DNA from: Sphagnum magellanicum
Lineage: Eukaryota > Streptophyta > Sphagnopsida > Sphagnales > Sphagnaceae
Direction of reading: 5' to 3'
DNA length: 64,000 bases
NCBI GenBank assembly: GCA_021904315.1
Contig: CM038925.1
Location: forward strand, 1,304,501 to 1,368,500
Numbering within the stretch: the first letter of the stretch is position 1; every line of letters starts with the position of its first letter. The notes below the pieces were generated by a model, which had not been told where the DNA came from, did no database searches, and saw only the letters and a list, made by a program, of their open reading frames with translations. Made by a program: the position numbers and the translations under genes. Shown here one piece after another: positions 3,796-47,310 of this stretch.

Positions 3796-3799
3796 GAGT

Positions 3800-23920: not shown

Positions 23921-25386
23921 GCAAATGATGATGACGCTAAATTGCAGTTATTCACAAAGTAGCCCAAACTGGGGGTACTGGGCTCCAGTTTTGCTGAAAC
24001 TGGGGACGAAATGAGAAGTCAGGCTGAAAACAGTACACAAGGGAAAAACAGCGCATCAAACTAATTGTCTCACCTAAGCTAGTTCTCAGGAGAGTTTTAC
24101 CCCCAGTTTTGGAGTCCCCTCATCTACACACTGTTTGCTTATCATATTCTTCATTATATCAAACCTTCTCATAATAAGGTCTTGCAAATCTTGTCAACTG
24201 GTGCCCAGTTTCAGATTTTGCTCACTTTATGGAAACACTCGAATTGGGGATGAAACAGGGTTTAGAGGGTCAGACTAGGACCCAAAGACAGAGTGACTTT
24301 ATGGAGAACTCTAATGTGCCGCAAGATTTACCAGTTGGTAAGTTCTGCTTGTGCAGAAATCTTCTTTTTGTTTAGTCAGTGACTTAGCTTCTTGAGCTTA
24401 ATTTAGCCTAACCAGCATAAGTTCCTACTTTTTACAACCCAAAAAGTTACTGCTAAATCTAGTTTAACTAGTTGTAGAGTATGTAGCTACTACTTTGCCC
24501 CATTATTCACATGATAATGACCCTGTTGCATCAATGGCTGCTTGTTTATCAAATAACATTATATGAAAATACATGTTGTCAAATTGAAGATTACAATGTA
24601 TTAAGCCCCACATCTATGTACATCAACTATAAAGGCCTTTCCAAAGTGATTTTGACAAACTCTTCATTCAATGGGTCCACCATTAACAACTCATCGATCA
24701 AGATCTACCAGCCCAAACGTTTATAGTTGATTTGACATTTTAAAACAAGGGGGACAACTCAGTGCCTCTTCAAAAGTTGGGGAGGATCAATAGTAAATAC
24801 TAACTGCAACCCATGTCCTAAGTAGACCCGTGGGATAGGTATCTCTCTAGATCATGTTGATAGTGATACATGCAGGGTTTTTTTTTCCCAATTTTGTGAT
24901 GTAGGCACAGTGGTAACCATCCATAAGAGGAAGAGCCAAATTTGGCTACAGGTCTCAAAGAGGAGAGTAGTCATTTTCTAGAATCCTGCCATGTTTTTGC
25001 AACCTCCAAGAACCCACTGTCTGAATATGGTGACTTCCATGTTTTTTTCCTTAGAATGTGGCGAACTAAAAGGCATCTAAAAAGAATCTTGTGACAGCAC
25101 CCAAAAAAAATTGTCAGCGATATTTTGCACAATTATTTTTTTTGGCTAGTGATGTGATGTCCAAAATGTGATGCCAGTCATTGGTCAATACAACATTTTG
25201 TCATGTTCCTAGTTAATTTGTTTAGAGAGTGAAAAATTAACATCACAATTTTTGATGCTAACCCATTGTGCATAATGGTGGTCAACATCAATCCAATAGT
25301 TTCCATATCCTTAAAGTGAACTAGGGTTAAAATAGAGTGGTGAACCTGGGGTGGGAAGGTGGGCTGTGACAAGTTTGTCAAAACTG

Positions 25387-25393
25387 TATAAAG
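25387..25393 (+). promoter_or_regulatory. TATA box of SPH gene A
   Basis: TATAAAG preceded by TTTGTCAAAACTG. The matching place in copy B has TATAAAAG preceded by TTTGTCAAAAACTC. The conserved position, about 155 bp before the start codon, supports a core promoter. Confidence 0.75.
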
Positions 25394-25544: not shown

Positions 25545-26224
25545 ATGGCTGTTCATCAGGGGATCAATGGGAAAGTCATTATGCCACTGGCAACCTGTGT
25601 GTTTGTGGTTCTTCTGCAGCTACTTGTGATGGGGAAACCTGTGATCTGCCAAGAAACAAATGTTCTCATCTCAAATGCAATGCCAGGGGAGGTCCTGACA
25701 CTTCATTGTCACTCTAGAGATAATGACCTAGGTGTGCACACACTTGCTTACTTAGCAACTTATCAATTCAATTTCGAGGTTAACTTTTGGGGGACAACAC
25801 TGTTTACTTGCGATTTTACCGCCACTAACCACCCTACAAGTCTTGGCCTCATTGTCTTTCAAGGTCCTAGTTATCAACATGGCCAGGCTTGGATATGTGT
25901 AAACCAATGCAACTGGTCAGTATATGAATATGGCTTTTATCTCAATGGTCGGTATCAAGCTTCATGGCCAAAACTTGGCACTGATACAAATGTCAGTACT
26001 TCTACTCGATTCTCTTTGCATTTTGTTTTGTTGGATGCAAAATTCATAGATGTATTTGTTTGGTGTCAATATAGGCTGGTCATGGCCATTCTCTCTTGTA
26101 GCTGCTGCTGACATTCAGAAGATGATGAATGTGTCATACTGTGATTGTTAACCTGAAACTAGCTTAGGTTAATTAATCAAATCATGTGTTGAATTATGCA
26201 GGTAACAACAGTTCTGTGATCTGA
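25545..26224 (+). CDS. S-protein homolog A (plant self-incompatibility S1 family), two exons
   Basis: Predicted small secreted protein of the S1/SPH family, whose founding members are the pistil self-incompatibility determinants of poppy. Most other members have unknown roles in cell-cell signalling. Exon 1 is 25545-25995 and exon 2 is 26202-26224, giving 157 residues. Residues 11-34 form a hydrophobic signal peptide. The S1 domain follows, with L-H-C-H-S at 53-57, N-F-W-G-T-T-L-F-T-C at 80-89 and C-V-N-Q-C-N-W at 118-124. The four cysteines (55, 89, 118, 122) fit the two-disulfide fold. The start is the ATG shared with copy B. The longer upstream frame opens on TTG and is unlikely. The 206-bp intron (GTACTT...ATGCAG) is inferred from copy B. 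Splicing gives the tail N-V-S-N-N-S-S-V-I with N-glycosylation sequons, while retention would give 188 residues ending without family likeness. Confidence 0.85.
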
Positions 26225-26276
26225 CACTGGATTCGGAGACATCCCTATACGTAATTTGTTGCGCCATTTACAGCAC

Positions 26277-26282
26277 AATAAA
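26277..26282 (+). terminator. Poly(A) signal of SPH gene A
   Basis: AATAAA in the context CACAATAAATCCAT, 53 bp after the predicted stop. The same words occur at the same place in copy B. Confidence 0.65.
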
Positions 26283-26520
26283 TCCATAGGATTAGAGTCA
26301 ATGTTCTAGTTACATGGCACATTCCATAAGATGTTTGCCAATTATCAATTCTAGGGCAATAACATTGAACTAACCCAGAGATGTTGGTACATGAGGAGTT
26401 CAATGCAACACTTGATATAATAAATTGAAGTCTCCATATTCTCAATTTTAAGTTTGCATGAATGATCGTTTTTCTGAAATGCCCACAAATTGAATGCTTC
26501 TAATTTGTTTATTGCTCAAG

Positions 26521-28640
26521 GTGTTTTCATACAAACACCAAATCTACACTATGGCATGTATATAGTAGGACTAATGCAACTGGTCAAATGGCATTTGGCA
26601 TGCTGCACAAATGTGTTGTCACTACTAATACTTACATCAACTCTCAACTAATTTTTTGAAATGAATTCCTTGATCCAGACTTGCATTATAGTTATCATTG
26701 GGCAATTGCAAGAGGTTGCACCTATCTGATAAGCTTCTACTTCCCAAACACAGGTCAAAGTTACTCATGAAACTACAATATAGGTTTTTCTGGGGTTCTA
26801 ACTTGTTGTGAATATGATTTGATTGGTAGCTTGGATGTAAGATCCCTGCTCCTATTTGCATAGCATGCATGGCCATACCCAGCATTAATTAGCTCACTAA
26901 GCTTCCTGGTCAGATGGTGAATGCATGTCTCACTATCCAATTCAACTGCACATTCTGGATGGTTATGCTTGCCATTTGATCAGGGTTTGCTGTCTGGAGG
27001 GTGCATTGGAATAATCTGTTCCAGAGGTGATGCTTTGGTAGGTGGGGCTGGTTTGGTTGTACTCTGTGTGTTGGATCATGGAGTTTCTTTGAGAATCAAA
27101 CCGAATGATGTGAAGACTAAAGAGGAGAGAGTCTACAGAAAAATGGTTCTCCCTTCTTGGGCCACATTTTCCATGTTAGGTATTAGATTCCTTGCCATCC
27201 TAATCACACTCAAAAAACTACAATTCTCTTCATGATGCTTGTCATGAAAAATCAAAATTACTTGGAGTTGTTGTGACTTAGAGGCTTTCCCCTGTGCCTG
27301 AAGCATTTGAGAATTCTCTTGCAGCTTTGTTATTTCAGGCATTGCAAACGAAAAATAAAATAGACCTAAATTGGCTTCATGAAAAGCTCTGGATCTGATG
27401 TGTAAACTCGCTCATACAAATATTATTAGTGTAACTGATTGTTGGCTGTGGATATGAAGATATCTGAATCATTGATTCTTAGGACTTTACTCAAGGCTGT
27501 TTAGCATTTGGATTTTCAGGACACTGGGCTAAAATTCGAATATCACCCCCATTTTGGGTTTGGAAATCCTGAAAGCTCCTGATGGAATTGCCTCACCTTA
27601 TACTTCAGATTCTACTGCCTCTCAAAGGTGGGCTCTAATATGCATATTTGCTACATTGTTATGATCTAGGGAGGTCACCTTTCAAAGACTTCTTTCAAGT
27701 CCATTCTCATGCATGACCTTGGGAGATAACCCGACCAAGACTATGGCGCACTCTCTAGCTAGCTGATTTTGCAGCTTTGGTTGTCATTCATCGCGTCATT
27801 TAGTCAGACACAACATAAGTACCACTTTTTAAAAAGCTTTATTGTCATGCCCCCGGAGGAAAGAGACTTTGCACCATTGTAGAATTCTTAGGTGAAAATT
27901 TGGCTTGAACTAAGGAACCATTTTGTGGACGATAGCAGGGACTTACCAGTGCTGACCGGTTCTCACTAGGACCCCCTGGTTCTCAGATTGGTTCTCACAA
28001 GGAGAACCAACTGGTAGCACCAAAGGTGAAAACCGGTTTGAAAACCAAACCCATGGTTCTCACCCAAGTGAGACCAGACACCAGACCCAATGAGTACTGG
28101 TTATTATTATTTTTTTGAGACAACAGGGTTGGTTCTATGAGAGTTTAGGTTAGTTTGTAGGCTGGAACACCCACTGCATAAAAACCCCTAAGGAAGAGTG
28201 GATAGTGACTAGGTAACCGGCCAGACGATGCTAGCTACCAGATATAGGCATGCCTATGCTAGCTACCACATATAGTCAATGCATGCTGAGACTATATCTG
28301 GTAGCCAGTGGCCTTGATCTGGTTATGTACTACATAACCGGTGAGAGCAGCCCGGTTACCAGAAAAAAAACGAGCCACGGGAGTGGTGAGTTTTTTTCCA
28401 GTAACTGGGCTGCTCGAGCCGTGTTACGGGACATAACTGGTGACTTGACAGATGGGATTTCACCTGCCTATAACTGACGACTACTTGGATGTCTGGGATG
28501 GATGCCGTTGTCGCTCTCCAAACAACCCCCTGCACCCATCTGCGCGACCCAGTACACAGCAGATATGGGTTGTAACCTGAGACCTCTCCGCCAATGGGGT
28601 GATGCCATGCCGCGGATTTTAGGGAGGAACCGGTTATGAG
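26521..28640. other. Intergenic DNA between SPH genes A and C
   Basis: No gene is recognised. A 104-codon plus frame at 26921-27235 is open but unrecognised. At about 27.94-28.13 kb the words GGTTCTCAC, ACCGGTT and GTGAGACC recur in both orientations, starting with CAGTGCTGACCGGTT. This resembles the end of the element in the intron after gene C (29953-30355) and may be a relic of the same family. Confidence 0.4.
28234..28305. repeat. Inverted repeat around GCTACCAGATATAG
   Basis: GCTACCAGATATAG at 28234-28247 is the exact reverse complement of CTATATCTGGTAGC at 28292-28305. A second direct near-copy, GCTAGCTACCACATATAG, lies in the loop. About 1.2 kb upstream of SPH gene C. It may be part of a small transposon or just a cruciform. 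Confidence 0.6.
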
Positions 28641-29499
28641 ACATAAACAAGGAAAGCAAATCAAGCTGACCTATAATGGAGCACTATTTCTCATAACCAG
28701 CCTCTTGACAGACAGAAAGTGCCTCTTCATGGATGAAAAGTAGACTACTTCATCTACCTTCAAGAAGGTAGTAGGTGATGAGAAGTAGTTCTCATCTCAA
28801 GGACGAATCAGAAGGCGACACGTCTGGAGATTCGTCTTCCCGCTGATTATCCTTGTGGGAAGTGGGTGTCCAGGAGCTCTCGAGGCGGTCTTTGTTTTCC
28901 AAACCCCCCCCCCCCCGCCCCTGCCCGCCCCCCCGGCCAACAAAATTGCACCGCTCTTTCAAGATGCCGTCTCTTCTTCCTCGCGGACAAAGATGGATAG
29001 CTATCGAGGATCCCGAGTCTCGATGTATACAGTCTCAGTCATGGGCCCCCCACGCAGAAGACGGAAAACAATGGGAACTCGACGGAGTCGAGACAGGAGC
29101 AGAAAGAAGACGAGGAGGAGGGGACGTCTACGCATCCCTGACTCCCGATATAACGTGAAGAAAGAGGATGGTCATTGCTTATCACTCACCTCTTTCTTCT
29201 CTCTTTTTCCCTAGCTCTAATATTTGTGCTCGACTTGAACGACTTCCAGTCTTTGCCGGAACGGTGGAGAGCTTGCATCAGGTGAGAACGTCTCATTGAT
29301 TTCCTAATTCGCTTCTGTATGCATGCCGCTTCTCTTCAGCAGGATCTGCATTGTTTGTACAGTAGTGCTGATCATCGGATCTTTAGTTCTTCGTTCTTCC
29401 ACAAAGTTTCTGATGTTATATACAATGATATAATTTCATCGGTTGTGCCTGCAGAGCAGATTATCGATCTAGAGGACGAAACTTCCAAGCTCGGCACAG
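28641..29499 (+). promoter_or_regulatory. GC-rich promoter and 5' leader of SPH gene C
   Basis: Composition rises sharply compared with its surroundings. A likely leader intron runs from 29282 (CATCAG then GTGAGAAC) to 29454 (TGCCTGCAG), 173 bp, so the leader would be spliced shortly before the ATG at 29500. An arginine/serine-rich frame from ATG 28993 to 29214 lies upstream and could be a uORF or chance. A second possible acceptor, TTTTTCCCTAG, ends at about 29215. No clear TATA box was found. Confidence 0.5.
28904..28938. repeat. C-rich tract with G-quadruplex potential on the minus strand
   Basis: Runs of 13 C, then CCCC, CCC and CCCCCCC, separated by single or few bases. The opposite strand has at least four G runs with short loops, just upstream of the presumed leader of SPH gene C. 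Confidence 0.65.
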
Positions 29500-29928
29500 A
29501 TGGCTACTTTTCATGATCTACCGAAAATGATCACGATGCCTGCAGCAATTGTGGCTGTTTATGTGTTGGTGGTGGTACTACACTTGATGATGAAACCTGT
29601 GACCTGCATCCCAACAGTAGTAACCATGGTGAACGACATGGACGGGTTGGTGTTGAATGTGCATTGTCATTCTGCAGAGGACGACTTGGGCTGGCACGCG
29701 GTGAATTTCCAATCAAATTATATTATCTCCTTCGAGGACAACTTCACAGGCACAACGTTGTTCACATGTGATTTCAACGCAGGCGATCCGTTCCCGACTA
29801 CCAGCATCATCGTCTTTCGAGGCTTTGCATACGGTCCTAACATGCCATGCTACGCCACATGCACATGGACTGTGAAGACTTCCGGTTTCTTTGATAACGG
29901 TGTCTTCAATACGCCATGGGCTCCTTGA
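29500..29928 (+). CDS. S-protein homolog C (plant self-incompatibility S1 family)
   Basis: Intact 142-residue frame opening with ATG right after a leader-intron acceptor. A hydrophobic signal peptide covers about residues 12-35. The S1 domain has V-H-C-H-S at 54-58, D-D-L-G-W-H at 61-66, N-F-T-G-T-T-L-F-T-C at 81-90 and C-Y-A-T-C-T-W at 117-123. The four cysteines (56, 90, 117, 121) match genes A and B. It ends P-W-A-P, where A and B continue into a spliced Asn/Ser tail. The coding sequence is more GC-rich than A or B and its flanks do not align with theirs, so it is an older paralogue and not part of the recent duplication. A 3' leader intron from 29955 (TGAG then GTGAGT) to 30538 (CTTGCAG) is likely. 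Confidence 0.9.
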   Translation: MATFHDLPKMITMPAAIVAVYVLVVVLHLMMKPVTCIPTVVTMVNDMDGLVLNVHCHSAEDDLGWHAVNFQSNYIISFEDNFTGTTLFTCDFNAGDPFPTTSIIVFRGFAYGPNMPCYATCTWTVKTSGFFDNGVFNTPWAP

Positions 29929-29952
29929 GTCTGATCATCAGTCTCTCATATG

Positions 29953-30355
29953 AGGTGAGTCACTAGGTCATACCAGTCTCAACTGGCCCGTTATTTCCCC
30001 CCCCTTTTTTTTAAAATAACCACTGGGCGCTAGGTTTTTCCATTGTTTTGGGCTGCCGGGTAGGTTATCAAATAACGAACTGATAACCACCTGTTATCGT
30101 ATCGGTTACTAGCCATTTATAATTTTTAAAAAATAAAAATAAAAATATTTTTTTTCTGTTTAAATTTTTTTTCGTACTAGTGTTTTATCAAGATTGATTA
30201 CCTACCATTGTAGGTTATTAAAATTTTGGAAATTCATTACCAGGTGGTTATCAATTTAACCAGTTGTCAAGCACTGACTGGTAGGTTATTAATAACCGGA
30301 TTGATAACCAGTTCAAAACTCAATAACCGGTCAACACGGGTTCATACCCACTTCT
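29953..30355. mobile_element. MITE-like element in the 3' intron of SPH gene C
   Basis: The left end has GGTCATACCAG..CAACTGGCCCGTTATT. The right end, read on the minus strand, has GGGTATGAACC..GTTGACCGGTTATT, an imperfect inverted match of about 30 bp. Inside, GGTTAT, GATAACC and ACCAG words repeat in both orientations. TSDs were not resolved. hAT-like affiliation is a guess from the CAGTGCTTGACA-type interior. Confidence 0.45.
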
Positions 30356-30701
30356 GTAATTGTAATATTGTAGGATGCTGCAAGAAATTTATCTATTCAT
30401 GAAAACTTTCACATGTTCTTTTTTCCATCAACTTTGGTGTAGTGTAATCTCTGTCATCAAAACCTAATTGTGGGTGTCAAAATCAAAACCCAGTCTGGTG
30501 TTAGCTAAACTAAAATCTTGTGTTCCATCAGCTTGCAGGATGAAGCCATGAGAAGCGTTGCAAAGATGGACCTCATAGTAAGCTCAACAAAAGCAATTGT
30601 TTCCATTCATGTGTGACACAAACGTTCAGTGATATTCTAGCTTCTTGTGAACCAGCTCTGTAATGATGGAACAGGGCTACTACTGAATGCAGCCACTGCA
30701 T

Positions 30702-30707
30702 AATAAA
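30702..30707 (+). terminator. Poly(A) signal of SPH gene C
   Basis: AATAAA in GCATAATAAACTG, about 165 bp after the inferred 3' intron acceptor, followed by T-rich sequence. Fits a spliced 3' UTR. Confidence 0.5.
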
Positions 30708-33700
30708 CTGTTTTGTAATTCAGAGGTTGTGGAGCTGTGTGTATAATTTCTATAGGGCTAGCTACTAACAATGTGAATGTTGATCAGTTATTGATGCTGG
30801 GTTGATTCTTTTGGATCTATTTATTCATGATTCCAGCTTTGGGCAGCTGCTGGAATTAGTGCACATTTGTAGAATAGTTTTCTAGGGTTTTCATGTTGTT
30901 GGATGTGTGATTTGTCTGCATGATTAAGTTATGCTCCACCATTATGGGCAACATTTATCATGAGGCCTGCTTCATGGACTTGCCCAATGGGTTTCTGGGT
31001 ATTTGAGGTTTTCAAAAGCAGGACACCCTTATAAGCACGCTTATATGAATGTAGATCTGAAGTTTTCTGCAGTTGGGGCAGATTGGGAGTTTTAATCATT
31101 CTCCTCCTAACTTGTTTCAAAGTCTTTTGAAACCTATTAATTAGCTCAAGGCCATAAAATCTTTACAAGTGTTTTTCTTGTGTGAGACGGTTAAGACGTT
31201 TCAATCGCTTTAAGACTGCAAATATCAAGGTTGTTGGAGATAGTGATCCCTAATTTCATACATTTATGCAACAGTGGCACTGAAAGATAAACAATACAAT
31301 TAATCAACCTTCAAAAGCATCTTGTGAAATGTGAGCAAGTCTGAAAAGTTAAAAAGCCAATGCAAAAACATGTTGAAATTTGAAAATGAATTGTGTTTAC
31401 AAACTAAATTTTCCAAAAGTCCAAGAATGGTCATGGGTTTTTGGGAACTCCACAAGAATATAAAACTTGAAAGGCTGGATTATGTGACCTGGCACAGTCT
31501 GTTGGAATCTTGTTATGACTCACTTGTGTAAGAATCGCAATTGAATTACCAAGATTCCATATTAAACCATCCTACTTCCATCTCACATTATGTAGGTAAC
31601 TATATATGTAAGTACAAGTCGTGTGCTCAGCGCAAAGCGAACTATGTAAGTACAAGTAAGTACAAGTACAACTGGAAACATCACACCTTGATTTTCCTAG
31701 ACCTATTGAACTTTGAAAAATCATAGGAAATATTTAAATAAATATTTTTGTAATTTTTTTCATGAGTGCATTTATTGGGTTCTATAAATTTTGAAATTTC
31801 AATCATATTAAGAATATTGTGTATTTTGATGTTCTTAATCATTGCATTTAAAAAACAATTAAGGAAATGTGATGTTAATTTTTTTCCTTGAACTTTTTGG
31901 TGAAGAACACAAATTTGAAATATGATTAAAATTTTTTTTTTGAATTTTTATCCTAATGTAATTTTGAAGTCATTTTATTTTTAGGTTTTTATTATGAAAT
32001 TATTTGAATAAACATAATTTAGTTATGAATTTTCAAAGTTAAAGCCCTTTTAAGTAAATGAGTCACTTTAATTAGGAATGTCTTTTTAGATTTCATTTTT
32101 AAAATTCCAGAATAAATTTCAAGCCATATATTAAGGCATGGAATGAATAAACACAAGAAAAAAAAATTATAATTATGAAATCATTTAAAAGAAAAGGCCC
32201 AAAAAAATGATTTGGCCACTTTCGGTTTCTTAACCATTCCTTTAAAAGGTTCCTAATGGCATGATGGTACCACCCAAGAATGGGTTCACCCACGACGTAG
32301 GTAAAGGTTCATTCATGCTTGATAATAAACTATATGTTAAATTGGAGGTAATTTAAAAAGAAAATTATCACATGTGTTCACATGATCCTAGGTGCAATTT
32401 GATGTGGCATGCATATAAATGTGAAACAATGTTAGTGTAGGTGTTACATTATCACCATTTCCCAGTAGGTGGATCTTGACATTCCATAGTGTCCACATAG
32501 TGCCTCTTGTACACTTTGTATAAGACAATGCATTTTGTCCAAGTTGTAAAGCAAAGCCTTACCTTTTCTCCTAACCCATAACCTATCATCCTTATGTTTT
32601 TGTCTCAACACATGGCACAAAGGGAGTCTTTTGGGATCCATATCAACCCTACATGCATAACTATCTCTAAAAATTCAATTTGAAATGGGAGCAGTCAATT
32701 TCTATTGTTTTTGCAACTACCTATACCCAACCAACAAAATATTATTTTTCATGCACTTGAAATTGGGGTGGGGAAAAAAAAAATTAAATAAAAAATGTGT
32801 GAAAATATCCATTTGAATATGTAGTTTTTGTGTCCAAAACACCTTGCAAATGAAGGTGATTCTAGAGTTAGAAACCCAATATGTCTCATTTGGCTTATGG
32901 TTCATTAGGATCTAAATCACACATTTTAGTTATCACTATTAAAAGTGGCAGTCGTTAAAGGTCCATATTGAAAATGAAATAGAAAACATAATTTCGATAC
33001 CTTGGATATTATAACCTTGTACCACTAGCAATTCATGGCAACCTCAGGATCTGACGCATGTGAATCATAAGTTTGTCCCACCATGTTTTTTTGATATCTT
33101 CAAATTTTTTTTGTCACATTTTTGTACATAAAGCCATTCCAAATGGTGGCCATATTCAACATTGGTGTCAACCAACTCCTTCCAAGCTTTCTTGCATACT
33201 CACAAATTTTCCAAAACAAATGTTCAACTTACTATTAGCAAAATATCACATATTTGGGGCCAAATGTGGTTCAAAATCACAAAATTATTAAAAATGTTGG
33301 AAAAGTCCTCCATTGCCCCTATGCACCTAGAAAGAAAATATTGTAATGCATCCATTTAAATCCAAAAATACAATGATGAATTGGAACTCTACAAAAATTT
33401 GCCATAAACTCATTGGTGTGCACAATCTTTAAAACCAAATTGAAAGAATTAGAAATTTCTCCAACCTCAAGATTCTGAAGTTGATTCAATTTCAATGTAT
33501 AGTCATTTTCAAAACAACAAAGATGTTGATTGCATTTTGGCTTGAGGTACATTCCACCAATTCACATTTGGGAAATGGTTTCAAAGGTTATTAATTTGGC
33601 CTCAGAAGGGGACTTACCGGTCCTTGAGTGACAGGAAAGTGAGGCCAAAAATTATTTGACTAACATCATGCCCACAACCCTAGAAGGCACCAACAAAGAA

Positions 33701-36419
33701 ACTTTGTAGCCTTGATCACCCAATACAAAGTGGTGCAAGTGATGCGAGATGATCAAACCTTATTAATGTATGTAGGCTTCCTACTATCAACCATGTATAA
33801 GCATTAGCCAACAATTTGCTATCACCCCATCCTAATTCCTTGGATGGAACCCCACTATTGCTTGCCGCCACTTCCCTTTCCCATAAATGTTTGAGTCTCA
33901 ACTATAACTGTTGCAAGACCTAGTTATTTACTTAGCACAATCAAAACTCCAAATACCACTGCTGATAGATTCCTTGCAATCTTGAAAGGCTATTAAAATT
34001 CCACATGTTAATCATTTAAAGATGGAAGAAAAAGGAAGTCAAGAACAAACCCACAATTTGCTAAATAACCTTGATTAAAAGTTTAAATCCCTTTTTTGAC
34101 AGCAAAAAAGGGCATTAAAAAAAAACTTTTGTCCACTATAGTTGCCCATTTTCCCAAGGACTTGCCACACATTCTATAGGTATGTGCAGGGCCTCATTAT
34201 GATTTAAACCTGCTATTCACTCAATTGACATAATCAACATAGGTCACTAACCTCAAGACAACTACTACCCACATACAATTTGCACATAATGCACAATATT
34301 TCCTGCTCAAACATGCACAAAGAAAAGGGTATCTAGTTTCCAGCACAATGTCCAGCAATTGATGTGTCAACCAGTGATCCAATGCTTGCTACAATAGTGT
34401 CATAAACACAACCACATGCTTCAATCTTTGCAACTCGAATTGGGCCCTCTAACATCTAGTCAAACAGAACAAAAACAAAATTAACAAGGTAGAGAAACAA
34501 CAACAGATTTAGTACTGTGGCTTTAAACCCTAAACCTAACATAGTTTCCAATGCCAATTGAGTGCCATAATAACTCTCTAATTGTAGTTGATCTCATCAA
34601 GACTAGCCACAACTAAGGATTAACATACCATACGAGTGTTTGTTGCAATGGCTAGCTCTACCACTCAAAATGCATTGTGTGCGTGCATTAAATAGTGCAT
34701 TCCACTAGCAAACAAGAAATTGGTGCCAAGACCCACTAATAGTTCAACTTTAGGATGAGGTTGGGAGCCAAAAATTCTTGTAGAAACGATTGCATTTTCA
34801 TTCACATATCGCAACTGCACACCAAGAAGGGATTTACTAAGGATCAACACCTTGAAAGTTTCAAGCGGTTTGACCCCTATATGAGCTATTAGTGTTGACC
34901 ATCTTCTTATAGTGTACATTAAGTCATAATGTTCAAATGAACAGCTAGAGCTCTCATGCACAAGAATTCACACAAATGAAAAGTAACATGAAGGTTTCAT
35001 ACAATTATTTTTGAATCTTGCCTTCCACTAGGTGCAAAAACATGCATAGTAGTTGTCAATCCATTGATAGTTAAATTAGTGAATGTTAATATTCCAATGA
35101 TCCATCTTCATGTGAAAATTAACCAGTTACATGTCAAAAAGGTTATTATAGAAAAGGGTAGGACATGGGAAAAGCTTCCCATACAAATAAAAATATTTGG
35201 CAATCCATGCTTCAACATTCAACCTTTCATAAGTCTTCAGGCAATATCCGACTCATAAATATAGGTTATTTGCTCATATTCTTGCATCTAGCCTTTGGTA
35301 AGCAAACATCTGCATTTGTTGTTAAAGGAACAAGTGCCTATCAAAGGACTAGAAAAAAAAAGTTGGGCACAAAATAATATCTATCAACCAATGTATCCGA
35401 ATAACAATAGTGTATACATGTCATGGGGTAGGTAGGTGAAGTAGTAGTTTGTCATTGTAGTCTTGGACTAAACAAAGAGCAAGGCAAATTGTAGTTACCT
35501 GAGAAGTTTGGCAAAATCGTAGCACACATCTCAATAAGCTAATGCTACACCTCAAACGATATTTACAACTCTCTTCTTCATGGTAGTTCTTTGTGGTTAA
35601 CAACAACGGTCTCTAAGGTTGCATCCTTTTTTGATGGTAACGAACAAATTGCTCTATGCAGGTATATGGTTTAGAAGTTGTGGATGAACGTCTATTGATG
35701 TTATTGGATGAAAATGACTGTTTTCATCTACATTTTTTATTCATTTTTTCCTGCCCATTCCTACCATGTTCCCTATTTTCAATTGTGTTAGAGCAATACA
35801 TCTAAGGGATTTGACAACATGTCGTAGTTGTAGGTGATGGAGAGTATGGAACTAAAAGACAATTCCAAAGTAAAGGGAAGACGCCAATAATGCACATGTT
35901 GCAGAGCAGAAATGTGAGTATGAACGTAATAGGGATGCTTGTTGGCTTCTCTTGCATACTTGCTGAATCCTCTTCAAGACACGGCAAAATAATTATATGT
36001 AGATTTACCTTTAAATATTACAAACCATTTCATTTTCTATGTAGTGTTAATTAGATGGTGTAGATTGCTTTATCCTTTAGGTTTCATAGCACCACCCTTG
36101 TGGTACATGTTCTTTCACTTTCATTGCTGTAAATTTCTCTATGTGGATATTTTGAAGTTTATAAGGAGTCTATTTTTACAAGGTAGTTTTTTTCATCGTA
36201 ACACAGAATAGGTGCTTAAGTCATCCATTGTTTGCATTTTTACAGTTAGGAGTCATTATCAAAGAAAGACAGTGGCACCTAGGTTTGTTCTTACTGAAAC
36301 CAGGAAAACCTTTGCAGTGAAACGCTAGGTTGGGTAGAATAAGGGAGATGCAAACCTAAAGGAAATTAATTCCTCAAAGGAGATGGAAAACGGTTTTGTA
36401 GAGATGGAAACCAATGATG
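30708..36419. other. Mostly unannotated intergenic DNA
   Basis: No gene is recognised. The second copy of the dispersed repeat of 23.7 kb lies at 31250-31475. A 65-codon minus frame at 32444-32641 has protein-like composition (R-R-K-G-K-A-L-L-Y-N-L-D-K-M-H) with no stops, but the family is unknown. A 98-codon minus frame at 34665-34961 is likewise unrecognised. Both could be exon or element relics. Confidence 0.35.
31250..31475. repeat. Dispersed repeat, copy 2 (see 23690-23920)
   Basis: Shares ordered blocks with 23.7-23.9 kb, including (T/A)GTCTGAAAAG and GGAACTCCA(A/C)(G/A)AGAA. Same orientation. Family unknown. Confidence 0.55.
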
Positions 36420-38050
36420 ATTACACACTAAGTTGGTTTTATTGGCATTTGACCTAGGCTAGTTGTTTCTTCCACATCCTATGTTTTTATTCTTTGAATG
36501 TAGGTTTGTAAATCTTCACAAGTCTTGAAGCTTGTTTTAATCCTTACAAACTTTTGAGTAATTTGCATACTTTTTCTTGTTCTTCATGATTGAAAAATCC
36601 CTTCAGTTGCTCCATATACATTTCCTCCTTCACCTCCCCATGTAAAAAACAGTCTTGATGTCAAATTGCATGATCTCTAGGCCTTTAATCATAGATAGTC
36701 CTTACGCTATCAAACTTTGCAATGGGGGTGTATGTTTCAACATAATCAACTCCAAACCTATGAATAACCCTTTGCTACCAATCAAGCGTTGTATCTCTCC
36801 ATATTGCTATCCACTTTGGGTTTAACTTTAAATGCCCATTTGCATCTTACTATCTTTATTATTGGTGGGACAATCACAAGCTTCCAAGTTTGGTTTGCAT
36901 GTAATGACTTGATTTCCTCTTGCATACCTTCTTCAAACTTCTATCTATCAAATGATAACATGGCAATTTCACAAGTTTCAAGTTCATCTAGTAAGCCTAG
37001 TAATTTTGTCAAACCAGCAAAGGCTGGATGATTACTCCCCCATTCACCAAATGTGATTAGTGGCTATTTTGTTCAACCTAAAGAAGTTCCTTCTTGAGGA
37101 ATGTCATGATCATTGAAAATATTAGTCTCTTGATATGAATCACCTACTTAGTTGCTTGTTGCAATGAATCTTGGTCTTCAATGAAAACATCTTCATATAT
37201 AGTGTGACGAGGTTTAGTGGCTTTCCCACTTTAGGAAAACCTAGGTGCATTCATTGCCTCATGTTCACTCTAACTTAAGATTAGGTTTCTACTCATCTTT
37301 GATATCAATGTTTTGTTCTTTAGGACTACTTTCAGAAGTATTTTCGATATTCAATCCCTAATTTAATGAAACATTTTTGTTGATGATTATTTTTCTTTTT
37401 TCAATACACCACAAATCATAAGCATTTGAGTTAGTATTGTAACCTAAAAAGATGCACTTCATGCTCTTTGGTTCCAATTTCTTTCTCAATTCCTTTGGTA
37501 CATGTGCATAATCAATGTTACCAAAAACTTTCATATGACTGATGCCAAGTTTCCAAAGGTGATTTGCCTTTTAGGACTTTAGTTCCTATCCTCTTTTGAA
37601 TGTAGACATCAGTATGAATAACCTCACCCCAAAAATTTTAACTAAATTTCTACAGAGGAGTATGGATCTAATTTTTTCCACCATTGTTTTGTTATCCCTT
37701 TTTAGAACACTATTTTGCTGGGGTGCATAGGCAACACTAAATTCTTGGAAACTCCTTTTTCTCTTAGGAAACTCTCACTTTCTTTCAGTAAATTCTACCC
37801 CTCTTTCACTCAATTTTTTCATCTCAAAACTTGTGTCTCTTATGGTTTAATGTAAAAACACTAAAAATGCTAGAATACTTCTCCCTTTGACTTCATGTAG
37901 TAAATATTTTATAAGAGTTTAGGATCATCTTTAAACATTCGTGACACATATCTGCATGATAAAACGGGTCTTAATGACAAGGCAAATTTACATAGTTAAA
38001 TTTTTGGGCATACAAGATTGAAATCATTGAACAACATTATTTTGACCAAA
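36420..38050 (-). mobile_element. Ty1/copia pol fossil (broken, partial)
   Basis: Minus-strand pieces give the copia order integrase then reverse transcriptase. Integrase-type G-V-E-F-T lies at about 37.8 kb. The integrase-RT linker with F-L-G-Y-N and Y-D-L-W-C-I-E-K-R lies at about 37.4 kb. RT-type T-P-I-A-K-F, then F-L-H-G-E-V-K-E and G-L-K-Q-A-S, lie at about 36.75-36.5 kb. Gag, the RNase H end and LTRs were not found. Many breaks are present, so it is an old dead copy. Confidence 0.85.
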
Positions 38051-39401
38051 GCTTTGCATATTATCACACCATAACAAACAAACCAATCAATAGTTTAACT
38101 TTCTTGCATGCACATTATCATACATGTTCTCTTCGACCATAAATTCTAGCTCTCTTCACACATTGTCCTTTATTTCTTTCCATAGTGTGGCGTTTTGTAT
38201 TACATGGCAGTGATTTAGACACAAAGATCTTGAGATGGTTTAAAACAATAGTGCCACCTTTGTGTGGATAATTCCTATCCTCTATTGGGGCCAGTACATT
38301 ATTAGTCCACTGAGGTGTAGGAAAACATGCACTACAATGTTTTGCTATCTTTAACCAGAATCTTTTTCAGGTTATACCCATAAAAGGTACCAACTTAGAC
38401 CAAATATGTTGTTCATTCTAGGATTGAATGGTAATTATATACCCAATGTCACCTTCTACTTAGTGTTTTTACAGTGGGTTCTTGGACATTGTGTATGCAA
38501 TCTAATCTCTTTTCCATAGTATCTTTCTCTCTTACACTAAACGTGGGTCCAAAACATTGCCTACATGCATGCTATGTATTTGTTGTAAGAAAAGGTCTTT
38601 TGTAAATTGCTGATGTGTATGGAAATCTTGTTTAAACTTGCTTTGGACTCTTTGTTGTGGTTATAGGTAGGGTCCATTTAAATGGGATTTTAGTCCAAAG
38701 TTGAAAATTGCAATAAACATGTGGTGTTCTATTTGTGATTTTTTGAGAATTTCTATTGGAACAATAAAAATCTTAATGCGGTGATGTTTTTGTTGCAGCT
38801 AAGACAAGTGTAAAAAGTGCTAGTTTTGCAGTGAAGGATGAGGCACATTCTTGTCTCTTGAGTGTTAGCCAACATACGTGCCAATTCTATGTCTTTCTAC
38901 CGATTTAAAAAATTTCAAGATGATGAAAATTTTATATTATGGGTTTGTTCATATTTTGGGCAGGTTTATTATGTAGTCATATATGCCCATCATATATTGA
39001 GAAATGCTATTGAAATCAATGGGTAGTCATTACACCTATAAGTAGATGGTTGTTGTTAGGTTTTGAGGAGGGTATGGCAATGGACAAAAATTGTGATGGA
39101 TGGAGATGACTCAAGATCCACATTCAAAATCTACTTTTTGTGTGTTGTTTGGTTTTAAGGGTAGATATTCAAAAAGATGTGGAATCAATGCATGAGGAGA
39201 ATCATGAGGTAGCTAAAGTGGTGGCATGTTCCTTTGTGACAAAGATGGAGAGGAAGAAGAAGTTGTTGCAGATTCCTTATAAAGCAAGTATACCCCTTGC
39301 CCCAACCCCATCTTAGTCAACTGGTCCAGTGGAACACACAACAATAGGGTAGTGGTCATGGCAACCACCACCTGGGTGGTTGCAACAACCATGGATGCAA
39401 A

Positions 39402-39418
39402 CCCCCCCCCCCCCCCCC
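39402..39418. repeat. Poly-C run (17 C)
   Basis: An uninterrupted C run inside the CACTA-type gene region. Length is probably unstable or assembly-sensitive. Confidence 0.8.
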
Positions 39419-42400
39419 GGTGAGTAATGGCACAATAGGGGCCATTGTCCTATGTTGGGCCATGGATGTAAACACCTCCAAATGTTGCTACACAATATAT
39501 GGGGACAGCAAATGCCCTTCCAACATAGCTACCATATGTGCTTCAAGTTTTGGTTCAAGCACCCGTCCTTTCAATGCAACAAACTATTGTACCATTAGTC
39601 AATTAAAAAGTGTATCTAGAGCAACTAGGAAAGTTGTGAAGAAAGAAAGTGATGTAGCAAGCAAAGTTGGGTAGGCCGTTGGTAAAAAGCCCCACAATAT
39701 CATAATAAAAGCACGAGGTGATGTTGATAGACGATGTGTAGGGAAGAATGCATGGGATGAGGTAGTGAGGACCTTAATTAATCCCCAAAATTTTGGACAT
39801 TAGTGTTTTGCAATGGGAAGGCCATGAACCTTCATCCTTAAGTAAGTTGAGGGTAGCCTTAGATAGGGAGTTTGAATATGTAAATAATGAATTGTCTATT
39901 GTCGAATTTAAAAATGTTGTGAAAAAATGTTTGAAAATATAGCGTTGCAAGTTGAAAGCTTTGTACTTGGGAGGCAAAATTGAATGCCTAGTGAACTTAA
40001 AACCTACTCATTGGGAGAACTTGAAGGTTCATTGGAATAAACAAAAAACAAAGAGGAAAGTAAAACAAATGATAAATGTCAGGAGTCTAGTGAAAAATCT
40101 GTTGAATGTGGGCCAATTGGGCAGAGCTGGAAAGGAAGTTCAAATGGTAAGTGCTTCTGACAATTCAAGGTTAATTAGCATCACAATTTCATTGAATGAA
40201 ATTTTTTTGTTCTATGTACAATACTTTAACTTCATAATTGGGTTGTGTTGTAGGAAAAACAAAGGCAAAAAAACCCAAGTTTGATTGAAATTGTAAAAGA
40301 TCTGCAAGGATATGAACAAATTAGCTCAACATTTGTAAGCTTGATTCAACTTGAACAATTGTAATCTATTGTCATGATTTATTTTTATTTTTGTGTTACC
40401 CCTAACCTTTTGATAAAATTGGGTGCCAATCATAATGTGGCGATGCTAATGATTTCATTTACAACTCATTTTAATAGCTAGGTAGTGGATTATTTTATTT
40501 AGGTATCAAAGAGAATGTCAATGAGATTGACTAACTTGGAAACTAAACGAGCTAAGTTGGAAGGGAAGGTTTTAGATGTGTTGGATAAAACACATGCCAA
40601 TAGTCAAGCATTGGCTAACATCAACTCCATGTTTTCAAACTTCTTGGGGAAGTTGAAGGACCAAGGTAGTCCTAGTTCAGTCGAACCCAAAGCTCTTTAT
40701 GAACAGCAACTTCCATTGCCTCCATCACCTCATGTTGTGGTTCTACTTGGTGTAGTTGCTATGTTGTTTGAATCAGGTCCATTGGACACCTATGGTGTAG
40801 GTAATGGCAATGGGAATGTACATTTTCTTTCTAGGGGCAAAATCGGGGCAAGTTGCATACATGTAGGTGGTTCATAAAAAATGTTGGCAACTACAACTCC
40901 TCCATTAAAAAAGGTGGTATCAAATCCCAACTTAATTGATCAACATGCCCCCAAACATGGTTTTGAAGGAGTAGCTTGTGTTGTTTTGCAACTTCAAGTT
41001 TCACCAATAAACAAGAAATCGTTGAACATGAGATCATTGAAATCTTTAGCAAAGAATCCTATTAGTGAAGGTGTTGAAATTTCAACTACAATACAAGTGA
41101 AAATTCAACAAAGATTGTTGGGTGGATTTATATTGCAATCTAGGAGTTTAGATTGGCCTAAACAATGATTATCCATTTGGTTGTGCAACAAAATCTACCT
41201 TGAAAAGAATTAAGGGGCATGGTGATTACACCTTCAGAATTTTACAAAAAAAAAGCAAAAGATCATTAGGTGGGCAATCGCCCTTGGTACCCATTTGTTT
41301 TCCTGTCTTAAATTGCTATTATTCATTTTGCGAACCAATTTAGTTTGTTGAATTGTTAGTTTATTGATCTTGGTTAATTATTGGCAATTATTGTTGCCAA
41401 GATTGTAGTTTGTTGTAGGTTAATTGGTGACATTATTCAACCCAAAGAGCCCCCAAAAAAAGGTTGCGGGAGGTAAAATCGATGGACTATGGGGGGTTGA
41501 CAAATGGCATGGCTCTATAATTCCAAATCTTTTTGTCAAAGTAGATATTTTAGTTGTTCATGTTGTTGAATTCCCACTAATGGTCACAAATGAAACAACT
41601 GATCAGTTTACAACGGGGGATGCCATAGGCTCATTTGCCTTATGGAGTTCGAAGTATGTAAAAGACTTTGTTTAACATTGTTTTCACAATGATCAAGAAA
41701 TAGATTTGTATGACATGTTTATTTATTTTTGGTGCCTCTTTGGACACCCACTTTGTTATGACCCATGATGTTGAATTGGAAAAATAATTCATTGTCGAAG
41801 TTTTATTTCAAATATAATGATTAATTAATGTCTTACATGTGGCATTTCATGAAATTAAAGTAATTACAAAATTCATCCACAATGACTAAAATACTATTAC
41901 ATAATCACGGAGGAATGACTATATGTCATCTTGCTCTTACATACAATGTCACAATTAACCATAGACGTGTCAAACTATAAAGTGCCCATGTTAGACAAAT
42001 GGCATTCGGTATGAGGACATGTGGCACAATCATATGATGCCACATGTCCAATCAACGAAAATTCAATTGCATAAGATACATGTTTTTGCATCTAAAACAA
42101 CTACCAAATTACTAATTTATGACTAACATGTGGAAAAATCCATCCATGTGCACCAATAAGTAATGGCCATGTGTAGTAGAAGAAATCAAGTTGTCATATG
42201 TTAGTCGAAAAAATATTGCCACACACATACCTTTTAAATACACCATAGCCAATGAAAACTTGACACTTATGCTCATTTATGAATCAAGATAGTCATATCC
42301 AAGTTATTTTTTACTTGACACCTTGTACACTACTTCTATCTAAAATGACTACTACGTGGCAACAGGTGTTGCCACGTGCAATCCATGTCACATAACATGT

Positions 42401-42542
42401 GTATCTAATGTGACAAAAATGACTGCACAATTGTCCATAATGTCTATTAGCTGAGAACTACCATGTCATGTCCTCTACGACTAAGTGTTCTAAACGTCTT
42501 GTCCAATATGACTTTTAAGGCCATTAGTCATTTGTGTCCTCA

Positions 42543-42575
42543 ATGACTGAAAAATCAGTCATAAGGAATCCTTAT
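42543..42575. repeat. Paired palindromes at the CACTA right end
   Basis: ATGACTGA-AAAA-TCAGTCAT (42543-42562) is a perfect hairpin. It runs into ATAAGGAATCCTTAT (42561-42575), a palindrome around one central base. Both lie within 45 bp of the element tip, where transposase-binding structure is expected. Confidence 0.7.
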
Positions 42576-42594
42576 TTTCTTCTAGTGATAATCA

Positions 42595-42800
42595 TCTTAC
42601 ATGTCAATAGCACATTTTTTTATATTGGACCCTTGAACTGAACCCCAAGCCTTTAGACACACTCATTGTACCTTATGAAAAATGTTTTTTTTAATGTGAA
42701 GAAGGGTCCAATTCAAGGTTCAATTTACTTCAAATTGGTCCCTAGGCTTTTGGTCCTTGGACCATTGTCTAAGTGAAACTGAGAGTCAGTTTACCCCAGT
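42595..42800. repeat. Dispersed repeat upstream of SPH gene B (see 62590-62775)
   Basis: GGTCCAATTCAAGG, TTTACTTCAAAT, GGTCCCTAGG, TTGGACC and a GTGAAACTGAGAGT block follow in the same order as related words at 62.65-62.77 kb. Both copies are on the plus strand and both sit just before gene-bearing segments. Family unknown. Confidence 0.6.
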
Positions 42801-42804
42801 TTAC

Positions 42805-42981
42805 AAATCGAGCCCCAAACCGGGTTCTGCTTCCTGCCTAATTCCAAAATCAAGCCCCAAACCCAATTCCAGCCTGGTTCCAAAACTGGGACCCAAACCT
42901 AGTTCCAATCCCTACCTGGTTCCAAAGTCCAGCCCCATATGCAGTTCCAATTCCTGCCCAGTTCTGGAAATTGGGCCCAAT
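42805..42981. repeat. Imperfect tandem repeat, about 40-bp unit, 4-5 copies
   Basis: Units begin AA(A/G)TC(G/A/C)AGCCCC or AAACTGGGACCC and end with GGTTCCA or AATTCCA. The 105-codon plus frame over it, with repeated S-P-K-P words, is explained by the repeat and lacks any gene context. Confidence 0.65.
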
Positions 42982-43945
42982 TCTGGGTGTGTTCTGAGAG
43001 GTTCTTGGTACCCAGAACCAGCCCTTTTTGATACCCAGATCTACCTGGTGATGCAGGTACCCACCCAACACTAGTGTGTATGTATCTATCTACTAGCACC
43101 AAGTGCCTTACCAGCTTAGCTCTGTACATAGCACACACTTACAGTAGCTAGATACTTACCCACTTACATAGGTAGTTACTAGTTACACAGGTAGTGTTAG
43201 GTTGAAGTAGACAGGTCTGCATGATACATTACCAAGGGTTACACTATCGGTGACCTTGGTAAATGAGTTGTGGTTCATCCACAACTCAACCTCAAGGGGT
43301 TTCCAATGGATGATGGATGCACTGGTGGGTGCTGGCCGGGTCACATTATCTGGCCCACATTGTGTACATGATAGTGACACTGTTGCATCCTTCTTTTCTG
43401 AAGTCTATGAGAACACACATCGTTGCTGCTGAAGGGAAAGGAAAATACTACAAATGTCATGCTCGCCACATATCTGTGCATCATCGGTGAATTCCTTTTC
43501 AAATTATTTTTAAAAACTCAGTCACACAAGTCAATCAAGCAACCCCAAAAAATTCAGTTGATTTGACATCTAATTTCAAGTGGATCACTCAATTGCCTCT
43601 TCCAACAGTTGTAGAAAGATCAACATGCATCTCCTAATTATGACAACCCATGTCCTGATAATTAGATAGTAGAGATATTTATCTATCTACATCAATGTGT
43701 ATTGCATTGTGTCCAAAATGCTACTTAATTCATTGGCCAGATGCATATTTATCATGTCCCTAGCTACTTTTCCTATGGAGTGATCATCTCAAAGACTGAA
43801 CATCACAATAGTTGATGCTAACCCATTGTAGCACAATGCTTATCAACATCAATCCACTATTTCCCTTTTGCAAATGCTTACCTAATATGAACTTGGGAAG
43901 AAACAGAGAGTTCACAGGGGCCAAACACAAGTTTGTCAAAAACTC

Positions 43946-43953
43946 TATAAAAG
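43946..43953 (+). promoter_or_regulatory. TATA box of SPH gene B
   Basis: TATAAAAG at a place corresponding to the TATA box of copy A, with the shared upstream word GTTTGTCAAAA. The start codon is about 145 bp downstream. Confidence 0.75.
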
Positions 43954-44094
43954 GGGGGAAATCAAAGCTTAACTCAATATCAATTCTTTTATGCTAGTAG
44001 TCATTCTCCTCTCCTACAATTTAGATTTGGGTGTCTTCAGACAAATACTATAGCTTGCAACTCTGAGAAGAAGAGCTCTGTGGTGCCTGTAGCT

Positions 44095-44880
44095 ATGGCT
44101 ATTCGTCAGGGAATCAATACAACCAGAATCATTATGCAGATCATGGCAGCTTGTGTGTTTGTGGTTCTACTAGGGATGGGGAAACCTGTTTCAGGTCGGG
44201 AAATATATGTTGTAATCTTGAATGACCTGCCAGGGGAGGTCCTTCAGACCCATTGTCACTCTGCAGATAATGACCTACAGATACATGAAGTTCCTTACCT
44301 ATCAGATTATCAATTTAGCTTCAGGGAAAACTTTTGGGGAACGACTCTTTTTACTTGCGATTTCACTTCTATCAAACACCCTACAACAGGGAGCATCATT
44401 GCCTTCCAAGGCGATCATTATGATGGCAACATGCCATGTGTTCAATACTGCAATTGGTCGGTCAACCCATTGGGCTTTTATCTTAATGGCCAGTTTGTGA
44501 AGGCATGGCCAAGTGCCACGAATATGAAAAATGTCAGTAAATTGTATTGCATTTTCTTTCCATTTTGTGTGCTAGATGCAAATTTGTATGTTTAATGTGC
44601 GGTACTGTAAATATGAGGGTGACCAAGTAGGTATCAGTGTGGTGGTGAGAATGCATATTTTGTAGGTAGTTAGAAAATGTAGTTTCCATTTGGTCCTAAC
44701 TTTTGAGGTTTGTTCAGCAGTGTTGCTGTTACTGATTTGAACTTGTCATAAAGGGCAGAGTCATTACATGATGAACTCCTTGTTGGAACTAATACAGTCT
44801 AACCAATCAGATCTTGTGTGTTGTATTATGCAGGCAACAACACTTCTATGATCCGGTTGTTGATGGGAACGTCTCAGTAA
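44095..44880 (+). CDS. S-protein homolog B (plant self-incompatibility S1 family), two exons
   Basis: Duplicate of gene A. Exon 1 is 44095-44536 and exon 2 is 44834-44880, giving 162 residues. A signal peptide covers about residues 12-34. The S1 domain has T-H-C-H-S at 52-56, N-F-W-G-T-T-L-F-T-C at 79-88 and C-V-Q-Y-C-N-W at 115-121. The four cysteines are 54, 88, 115 and 119. The start is the ATG at 44095. The upstream GTG-opened extension of five codons is not conserved. The 297-bp intron (GTAAAT...TTATGCAG) has donor and acceptor at the same codon phase as gene A. Joining gives N-V-S-N-N-T-S-M-I, matching A, then eight further residues. Sequons lie at Asn146, Asn149 and Asn150. Unspliced reading would end at 44595 with an unrelated hydrophobic tail. 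Confidence 0.85.
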
Positions 44881-44905: not shown

Positions 44906-44911
44906 AATAAA
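44906..44911 (+). terminator. Poly(A) signal of SPH gene B
   Basis: AATAAA in GCCACAATAAATCCAT, 25 bp after the predicted stop and matched in copy A. Confidence 0.65.
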
Positions 44912-45272: not shown

Positions 45273-47310
45273 TTACCATCCTTGACCTAAAATCTGTCTT
45301 CTTTGTTTTTTGTCTGCAAATACCTCAAATGGAGGTTGGTTTCTCACAGCAATCACAAGACTTGGTCGGTGCATGTGTGCCCAAAGATTGATCCCATGTC
45401 TTGTAACCATATCATGAGGCACCTGCAAATTTCAAGAGACAAATGTGCTTGTGACAGAAGAGATACCTATATATGTTCATGATTGCACAATAGGTTTCAC
45501 TCAAACTATCTCCTAACATGACCAACTTGAGAAGTGCATCTAGTGGAGGACAGATGCGCCTAATTTGGCAGTGAAGAGACATCCCAAAACTCTGTGTAAA
45601 ATTTTAAGGAATTGTCCCCTTGTTTCAAAAGGATTTGTTTACTTTTATTTGTAAAGGGGATTTTGTTTCACACAGCAAAAGATGGGACCACAGATGATTC
45701 TCATTATTTTCTTTGGGTGTTTGTTTCAATACTTTCCATACTGGACCTCTTTTAAATAATCTTTTCATTTTTTTTCACTAACTGTAATTTCAACAGTTTT
45801 ACAAGGTGTTTTAAATACTTGTTTTTGTTTCAATGTTTTTTTTAATGGCAGGTATTTTTAATTCTTATTTCAAGGTGTTTCTGCATTAATTTTTAAAAAC
45901 ATCTTTTGCTTGGGGGTGGTGTAGAATCTCTGTTTTGACTTCAAAAGACAGTACCTTCAACCTTGTGGTTCCATCTCAAAACACAGAAGCTTTGTGTGGA
46001 CAAAATACAGTTACAAGGTTAGTGTATGATACTCCTCAGGAAAGACGACATCTATACTAAGGACCTGGGAAATATGGGACTGAGGAATCCAACAGCAAAC
46101 TTTGTTGAAGCCTAGACTCAGTTTCCTGACTACACCTAAATGCATAAGTGGGAGTATCTGAAGGATTGAGCTTTCTGATAAAGCATAGATACTTGCCAAT
46201 CCCCTGGGAAACATTTCAGAATGCAGATCACCACACCAGAGCTCAATCTGTATGTGATTTCAAGGTATCAACAAATTCCTCAGCATGTCTGCCAGCCATA
46301 CTACCCCCACCAGCTGTTACTGCACACTACCAAACTGTGGGAGATATGTCTTGAGATGTTAGAGAGGACGAACACACATTGCAGGGCAGAGTCAAGCTGA
46401 ATTGCAGCAAGATATGAATAAGATATGTTTTCTCACCCTTCTCCAAGGACCAAATCCAAAATCAGTGATTGCTTCACCCGCTGATCGCCATTGTGGATTC
46501 ACCAACAGCAAGGTCATCTTTTCATCACTGCTGGCCAATGACCTTACCTATCCCAAAGACACATTTACATACACAGTATATAACTAGTGCAAGAAGACAG
46601 CATATCATATGCACTGTTCATCAAGATCCAGCCACATCATGGTCCTGCAATAGTTATAGGTATAGATCTTGGAAATAACAGAGAAAAGAAGTGAAGTGAA
46701 AACATACACTAGGTCAACTTCTGTGGTATTCCACATGAGTTTAACTCTGGCTTTCAGAAATACTCTGAGTTTTCCAGAAAACACAGCAGCAGTAATGAGG
46801 GATAGCTGCTTCAGTGCTTCAGCTATAGGAAAAATGAGAGCAGCTATGCTCTTATCTGCCAGGTACAGAAGACCAACAGGATCCATTTCATTGTCCTTCT
46901 CACTGATGCAGCGTGTTATGCTTTGTCACCTAACAGACTCATTGACTTGAACATAGCAGTGATCATCTTTGAGCATGCAATAAACTTGTCTCTTATACCA
47001 CATGGATTAGTCCCTGGCACATTAACAGCAAAAGGAAATTCTTTTTCCAAAAAAAGGAAACAATGTGTCAGAGCTCTTGCATAAGCAAATCTTCTCCAAG
47101 ACATTGCATCCAATTTACTCCTTTACAGAATCCTGACAGGCAGCATATTCAGAAATATCACATAGAAGTAAAAGATTGAACCCGGGCTCAGTACCGAGGT
47201 AGTTGAACTTGTGTTGATCAACAGGGAGTAGAAGCTATAGCTTCTGCTGCTGTTTACCACTGGCTATTGCTCTTTGTACAGCCTCCCCTGGCTCTGCACG
47301 CATGCCATTG
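45273..47310 (-). pseudogene. DUF1995-domain (plastid-type) gene, six exon-like blocks, apparently inactivated
   Basis: Minus-strand blocks read in family order. About 47310-47185: A-V-Q-R-A-I-A-S-G-K then L-L-L-P-V-D-Q and F-N-Y-L-G-T-E-P. About 47055-46935: N-P-C-G-I-R-D-K-F with F-I-A-C-S. 46902-46764: A-A-L-I-F-P-I-A-E-A-L-K-Q-L. 46547-46437: L-L-L-V-N-P-Q-W then D-F-G-F-G-P-W-R-R. 46288-46193: A-E-E-F-V-D-T and I-L-K-C-F-P-G-D-W-Q. 45422-45273: a final block beginning V-P, spliced on after W-Q. GT/AG borders are seen at most joints. Two faults are clear: a TAG at 47235-47237 where the family has Glu in L-E-L-L-L-P, and a 1-bp loss near 46262 (TTGAA for TTTGAA). DUF1995 proteins occur in plants and cyanobacteria, and several are plastid-targeted. 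No transit-peptide exon was identified. The last block might instead splice at GGATG|GTAAGT. Confidence 0.7.

Follow-up and report, generated by a model that had tools for sequence, protein, structure and literature searches.

Three S-protein homologue genes clustered in a plant genome, two with a probable small last exon

S-protein homologues (SPHs) form a large plant family whose genes are often described as single-exon. The window analysed here, a 64,000-nucleotide stretch of contig CM038925.1, contains three SPH genes, called A, B and C. From their sequence, genes A and B likely share an intron near the 3' end. In the preferred model, one intron is removed at AAT^GTCAGT...ATGCAG^G (carets mark the junctions), and the last exon contributes five codons to each protein. 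The probability of this model is put at about 0.5. The three genes and the signals associated with them are all on the + strand, and positions are those of the window.

A preliminary description had proposed a cluster of three S1-family genes, and matches to the Pfam family PF05938 (Self-incomp_S1) bear this out, with A starting at 25545, C at 29500 and B at 44095. The E-values are 1.6e-21 for A (residues 40-140), 6e-21 for B (residues 39-131) and 1.3e-19 for C, with bit scores of 71-77 in all three genes against a curated cut-off of 24. Exon 1 of A (25545..25991) has 149 codons and ends in phase 0 at AAT, and exon 1 of B (44095..44532) has 146 codons. Each encodes an N-terminus that is hydrophobic as read from the translation, followed by the S1 domain. 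The domain match of both genes lies inside exon 1, as had been proposed. Gene C (29500..29928) has an uninterrupted coding part of 142 residues. Its C-terminus reads FNTPWAP before the stop, without an exon 2 and without an N-glycosylation sequon. Four cysteines (C55, C89, C118 and C122 in the numbering of A) are invariant in all three genes. So is the F-T-C word (F87, T88 and C89 of A), which had correctly been described as common to the three and had been put forward as a possible mark of one clade. A, B and C are SPHs that form a small cluster in a plant genome. The Pfam run covered 17 proteins, the three SPHs included, in a window with 46 stop-to-stop frames of at least 85 residues. A tblastn search of the window with A, B and C for a further copy gave only matches with E above 1 outside the three loci. 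Searches of plasmids with A, of viral contigs with A and the three-gene alignment, and of prokaryote genome contigs with the alignment and B retrieved no relatives, which is no evidence of rarity. Rfam and tRNA scans of the window turned up no feature by which the plant could be named.

Structure prediction agrees with the family assignment. An AlphaFold model of exon 1 of A only (150 residues), built from the three-sequence alignment, has an N-terminal helix followed by beta-strands. The mean predicted local distance difference test score (pLDDT) is 66.9, with residues 1-35 and 146-150 below 50. The best PDB match of the model is Arabidopsis SPH15 (6g7g; E 3.6e-5, TMt 0.65). The only other match with E below 0.001 is human HGSNAT (8vly; E 2.9e-4, TMt 0.13). 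The predicted structure of exon 1 of A thus fits the SPH beta-sandwich fold, with moderate model confidence. By sequence, phmmer retrieves the SPH15 chain weakly (E 0.07).

The putative intron would occupy 25992..26201 in A and 44533..44833 in B, beginning with GTCAGT and ending with ATGCAG in both genes. The version first described starts 4 nucleotides later, at 25996 and 44537. Splice sites were scored with matrices and a U1 end that were entered from general knowledge and not trained on the host plant. By these matrices, the acceptor at 26201 (A) ranks 18th and that at 44833 (B) ranks 8th among the 6367 AG sites on both strands of the window. Both are in the best 0.3% and are conserved between the two genes. 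Branch-like sites precede them, with TTAAT at 25 and 29 nucleotides before the intron end in A and CTAAC at 31 nucleotides in B. The ends of the putative intron are conserved, with 39/49 ungapped columns identical after the donor and 26/31 before the acceptor. The middle (26042-26170) is almost unalignable, with 60/129 ungapped columns identical and 89 gap columns. The word formed by the acceptor and exon 2 was sought throughout the window with a tolerance of 3 mismatches and is present only at the A and B sites.

Without splicing, the frame would read through as a single exon to TGA at 26109-26111 in A (...VMAILSCSCC) and to TAA at 44593-44595 in B (...VLDANLYV). SPH genes are commonly single-exon, which favours this reading. 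Two findings favour it as well and weigh against an intron. Both genes have weak donors where exon 1 ends, and the 17 read-through codons have a ratio of nonsynonymous to synonymous divergence (dN/dS) of 0.51, like that of exon 1. However, +1/-1 indels put the two read-through frames out of register with each other, and the tails after NVS differ in length (37 residues in A, 18 in B). An acceptor among the best 0.3% is also kept downstream, together with branch-like sites. A 28-nucleotide stretch past the donor matches at 21/28 positions at an offset of +1 and at 11/28 in register; unrelated random pairs reach 20/28 in 0.01% of 20,000 draws. Such indels are hard for a coding tail to absorb, and the one-nucleotide offset therefore argues against coding read-through. 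We regard the unspliced reading as unlikely. It had been remarked that the unspliced C-termini do not resemble each other. This holds for the proteins but not for the DNA, since the sequence past the donor is homologous when gaps are allowed (the 39/49 columns given above).

The degree of conservation must be viewed against the history of the genes. Sequence comparison indicates that A and B are fairly old duplicates with homologous flanks and that C is more distant. The A-B alignment extends from about 390 nucleotides upstream of the ATG to past the poly(A)-like signal. Identity over ungapped columns is 251/372 upstream (about 68%), 296/432 in exon 1 and 167/246 in the 3' region (26263-26520). 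In exon 1, A and B differ by a dS of 0.67 and a dN of 0.35, and the dS of C is 1.57 to A and 1.52 to B. The exon 1 dN/dS values are 0.52 (A-B), 0.35 (A-C) and 0.34 (B-C). Because A and B are duplicates whose upstream regions are also about 68% identical, common downstream sequence means little in isolation. Outside exon 1, the promoter holds the best 40-column window (36/40 at 25239), and the second separate block covers the acceptor and exon 2 (34/40 at 26184-26185). Since the promoter window ranks above it, conservation of exon 2 is notable without being unique. In the block that starts at 26171 and runs to the TGA at 26219, 41/49 positions are identical (26/31 plus 15/18), which at the upstream rate of 0.675 gives a binomial P of 0.009 for a block whose limits were picked after the alignment was seen. 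A and B are a single pair, in which constraint and common descent are poorly separable. Identity falls to 16/38 ungapped columns after 26222 (26222-26262), and the conserved block hence ends approximately where the five-codon model ends, before the longer B tail first described.

The upstream block itself (25237-25296 in A, 43797-43856 in B) contains TTGATGCTAACCCATTGT, identical in both genes. With as many as 3 mismatches tolerated, the same sequence was not found elsewhere in the window, the region upstream of C included. The block is likely a common promoter element of A and B. A TATAAA sequence lies upstream of each gene, at 25387..25392 (A) and 43946..43951 (B), and the AATAAA poly(A)-like signals of A (26277..26282) and B (44906..44911) are aligned with each other. 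A scan for bacterial-type promoters upstream of A was empty, which is irrelevant for a plant gene.

The choice of donor determines the C-terminus of the predicted proteins. Every GT in 25900-26119 and 44450-44639 with an open upstream frame was listed as a donor and paired with acceptors scoring above 1.5 at an intron length of at least 60 nucleotides; the choice was made after all donors had been listed and is partly post hoc. The preferred donor, AAT^GTCAGT, is in phase 0 and lies 4 nucleotides upstream of the donor first proposed. Its hexamer is identical in A (25992-25997) and B (44533-44538). Exon 2 would then read GTA ACA ACA GTT CTG TGA in A (26202..26219; VTTVL and stop) and GCA ACA ACA CTT CTA TGA in B (44834..44851; ATTLL and stop), with 15 of 18 nucleotides identical and the TGA aligned. 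The spliced products would be ...TDTN^VTTVL (154 residues) and ...NMKN^ATTLL (151 residues). They have tails of equal length and one sequon across the junction (N-V-T in A, N-A-T in B).

The donors at 25996 and 44537 act in phase 1 and would give SNNSSVI in A and SNNTSMIRLLMGTSQ in B, each before a stop, with two further overlapping sequons. Both junctions are readable as claimed. Joining 25995 to 26202 gives an A protein of 157 residues ending ...TDTNVSNNSSVI, and joining 44536 to 44834 gives a B protein of 162 residues ending ...MKNVSNNTSMIRLLMGTSQ. The frame is open in both genes, and both extra sequons survive a Ser to Thr codon change. Against this, the donor words TCA^GTACTT (A) and TCA^GTAAAT (B) are equalled or bettered by 64% and 46% of GT sites, compared with 13% of those in the window for AAT^GTCAGT. 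Counted over the hexamer with its flank, they match 4 (A) and 5 (B) of the 9 consensus positions, and AAT^GTCAGT matches 6. An indel falls inside or beside the later donor word in the A-B alignment. The tails are unequal by eight residues, the stops are unaligned, and the extra B tail falls where identity is 16/38. Sole use of these donors is, in our estimate, decidedly improbable.

These results divide the earlier proposal of a conserved last exon that adds a glycosylation-rich tail. Genes A and B probably have a 3' intron, and the tail as proposed is doubtful on its sequence, given its weaker donors, unequal lengths and unaligned stops. The ending NVSNN(S/T)S(V/M)I, expected of both genes, is found in that frame in A (NVSNNSSVI, TGA 26222-26224). 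In B, NVSNNTSMI is not the end, and eight more residues (RLLMGTSQ) follow to TAA at 44878-44880. A spliced tail could be common to two genes, not to three as suggested, since C ends in FNTPWAP. A sub-type whose members all end in this way is thus reduced to A. The first sequon does not depend on splicing either, since N-V-S is also present in the unspliced frames (NVST in A, NVSK in B). The Asn that ends exon 1 is part of a sequon in every reading (NVS unspliced, NVS with the later donors, NVT or NAT with the preferred one), and the extra overlapping sequons are confined to the frame of the later donors. Sequons so near the C-terminus are often poorly used.

The two donors could also act together. 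The two GTs of GTCAGT are 4 nucleotides apart, so that as a GTNNGT tandem each gene could make both the short tail (VTTVL or ATTLL) and a long tail shifted in frame by 4 nucleotides. In favour of such use, A and B have the same GTCAGT word; against it, the later positions of the second donor differ between the genes. The title of a paper on GYNNGY sites also speaks of 'more noise, less regulation' (PMC4267661). Joint use appears distinctly unlikely.

Several observations weigh against the five-codon model itself. Its donor is weak by U1 pairing as well as by the matrix score given above, with 33-35% of GT sites pairing as well or better. Neutral simulation keeps the stop, the frame and the sequon in 19% (divergence 0.32) to 45% (divergence 0.17) of cases. 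With a neutral chance of 0.19-0.45, the aligned stop is modest evidence, and the short tail is a preference and not a proof. Exon 2 taken alone has no purifying pattern: of the differences in its 5 codons, 1 is synonymous and 2 are nonsynonymous. C has no such tail. A stronger donor, CTG^GTCAGT, is present upstream in A at 25916 (top 1.2% of GT sites). Use of another exon 1 donor such as this one could give truncated forms, or one of the genes could be decaying. In A, U1 pairing is better at 25916 and 25948 (top 3.3% of GT sites). Joining 25916 to the acceptor at 26201, however, would truncate the S1 domain, with ...CNW as its last residues before a stop, and the product would lack the last predicted beta-strands (130-133 and 136-139). 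The B counterpart at 44457 is weaker (top 21%), and its product is unrelated. Truncation or decay is highly improbable.

If the five-codon model is correct, exon 1 with its S1 domain would be joined to the last exon, the proteins would end ...TDTN-VTTVL and ...NMKN-ATTLL, and an N-X-T sequon would form across the junction. Export would be by an N-terminal signal peptide, and the proteins could act as disulphide-bonded beta-sandwich ligands outside the cell, as in Papaver PrsS. A bolder and very unlikely extension is a subclade of SPHs that has conserved a last micro-exon, in which a 4-nucleotide GTNNGT choice would switch each secreted ligand between a short C-terminus in TT(V/L)L and one in NN(S/T)S, the latter with additional sequons. 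Were the host a fern or a gymnosperm, such a subclade would place the family where a survey reported none.

Gene C has a possible splice signal of its own. A strong donor-like GAG^GTGAGT (29955..29960), for which no acceptor is established, lies 26 nucleotides past the stop and is in the top 0.13% of GT sites by matrix and the top 0.4% by U1 pairing. It could belong to an intron in the 3'-untranslated region, perhaps a relic of the A/B intron. Elsewhere in the window, an open frame at 46666-46947 has a sub-threshold match to ferroportin (PF06963; E 0.005), scoring 16 bits where the cut-off is 24.6. It sits in a G+C-richer stretch (0.42) and is possibly a gene fragment. Long open frames overlap on both strands at 14894-15509, possibly a repeat element, and the one frame scanned there had no Pfam match. 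A 165-nucleotide direct repeat at 56739-57102 has two copies that are 90% identical and start 199 nucleotides apart. A loose family at 1834-4453 comprises seven copies of an 85-nucleotide repeat around TTGGTCATA, with identities of 60-76% to the reference copy. A 137-residue open frame beginning MADDVATPSN (57998-58411) has no Pfam match.

The cluster resembles known SPH systems in several respects. With Arabidopsis SPH15 it shares the domain, the four conserved cysteines, the predicted beta-sandwich, the small size and the hydrophobic N-terminus. It differs in the probable 3' intron and five-codon last exon of A and B, and in the F-T-C word of A, B and C, which faces W-N-C of SPH15 in a weak alignment (E 0.07). 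Local clustering is also seen among Turnera SPHs in the portions available of that study (PMC9862265). According to the text consulted, Papaver PrsS proteins are likewise small (about 15 kDa), pistil-secreted and equipped with four conserved cysteines (PMC3166141). PrsS, a stigma determinant of self-incompatibility, is linked to the S-locus, is polymorphic and has a partner, PrpS; A, B and C are characterised here by their sequence. The GTCAGT of the candidate donors resembles the GYNNGY tandem 5' splice sites, which parts of PMC4267661 describe as a noisy class of 4-nucleotide alternative splicing.

The literature already deals with introns in SPH genes. SPADA, software for genes with one or two exons, took SPH as a test family (PMC3924332, in part). 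The Turnera study, in the same portions, cites a supplementary figure on the intron/exon structure of SPHs and discarded sequences with 'potential but ambiguous introns' (PMC9862265). It also states that SPH genes are under-annotated and that SPHs are found in non-seed plants, Amborella, eudicots and four monocots. Excerpts of one survey report that the family was not found in fern or gymnosperm (PMC10619864). A 2026 paper, in its accessible part, links both PrsS and another SPH, SIPS, with interspecific pollen-pistil interaction (PMC13033167). No tail of the present kind is described in the portions available of PMC3924332, PMC9862265, PMC10619864, PMC3166141 and PMC13033167, supplementary files excluded. 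The locus is a normal SPH cluster with a probable small last exon in two of its genes. Terminal exons of small size readily escape annotation or are put in the wrong place, and a correct 3' exon counts for expression and peptide work on such ligands.

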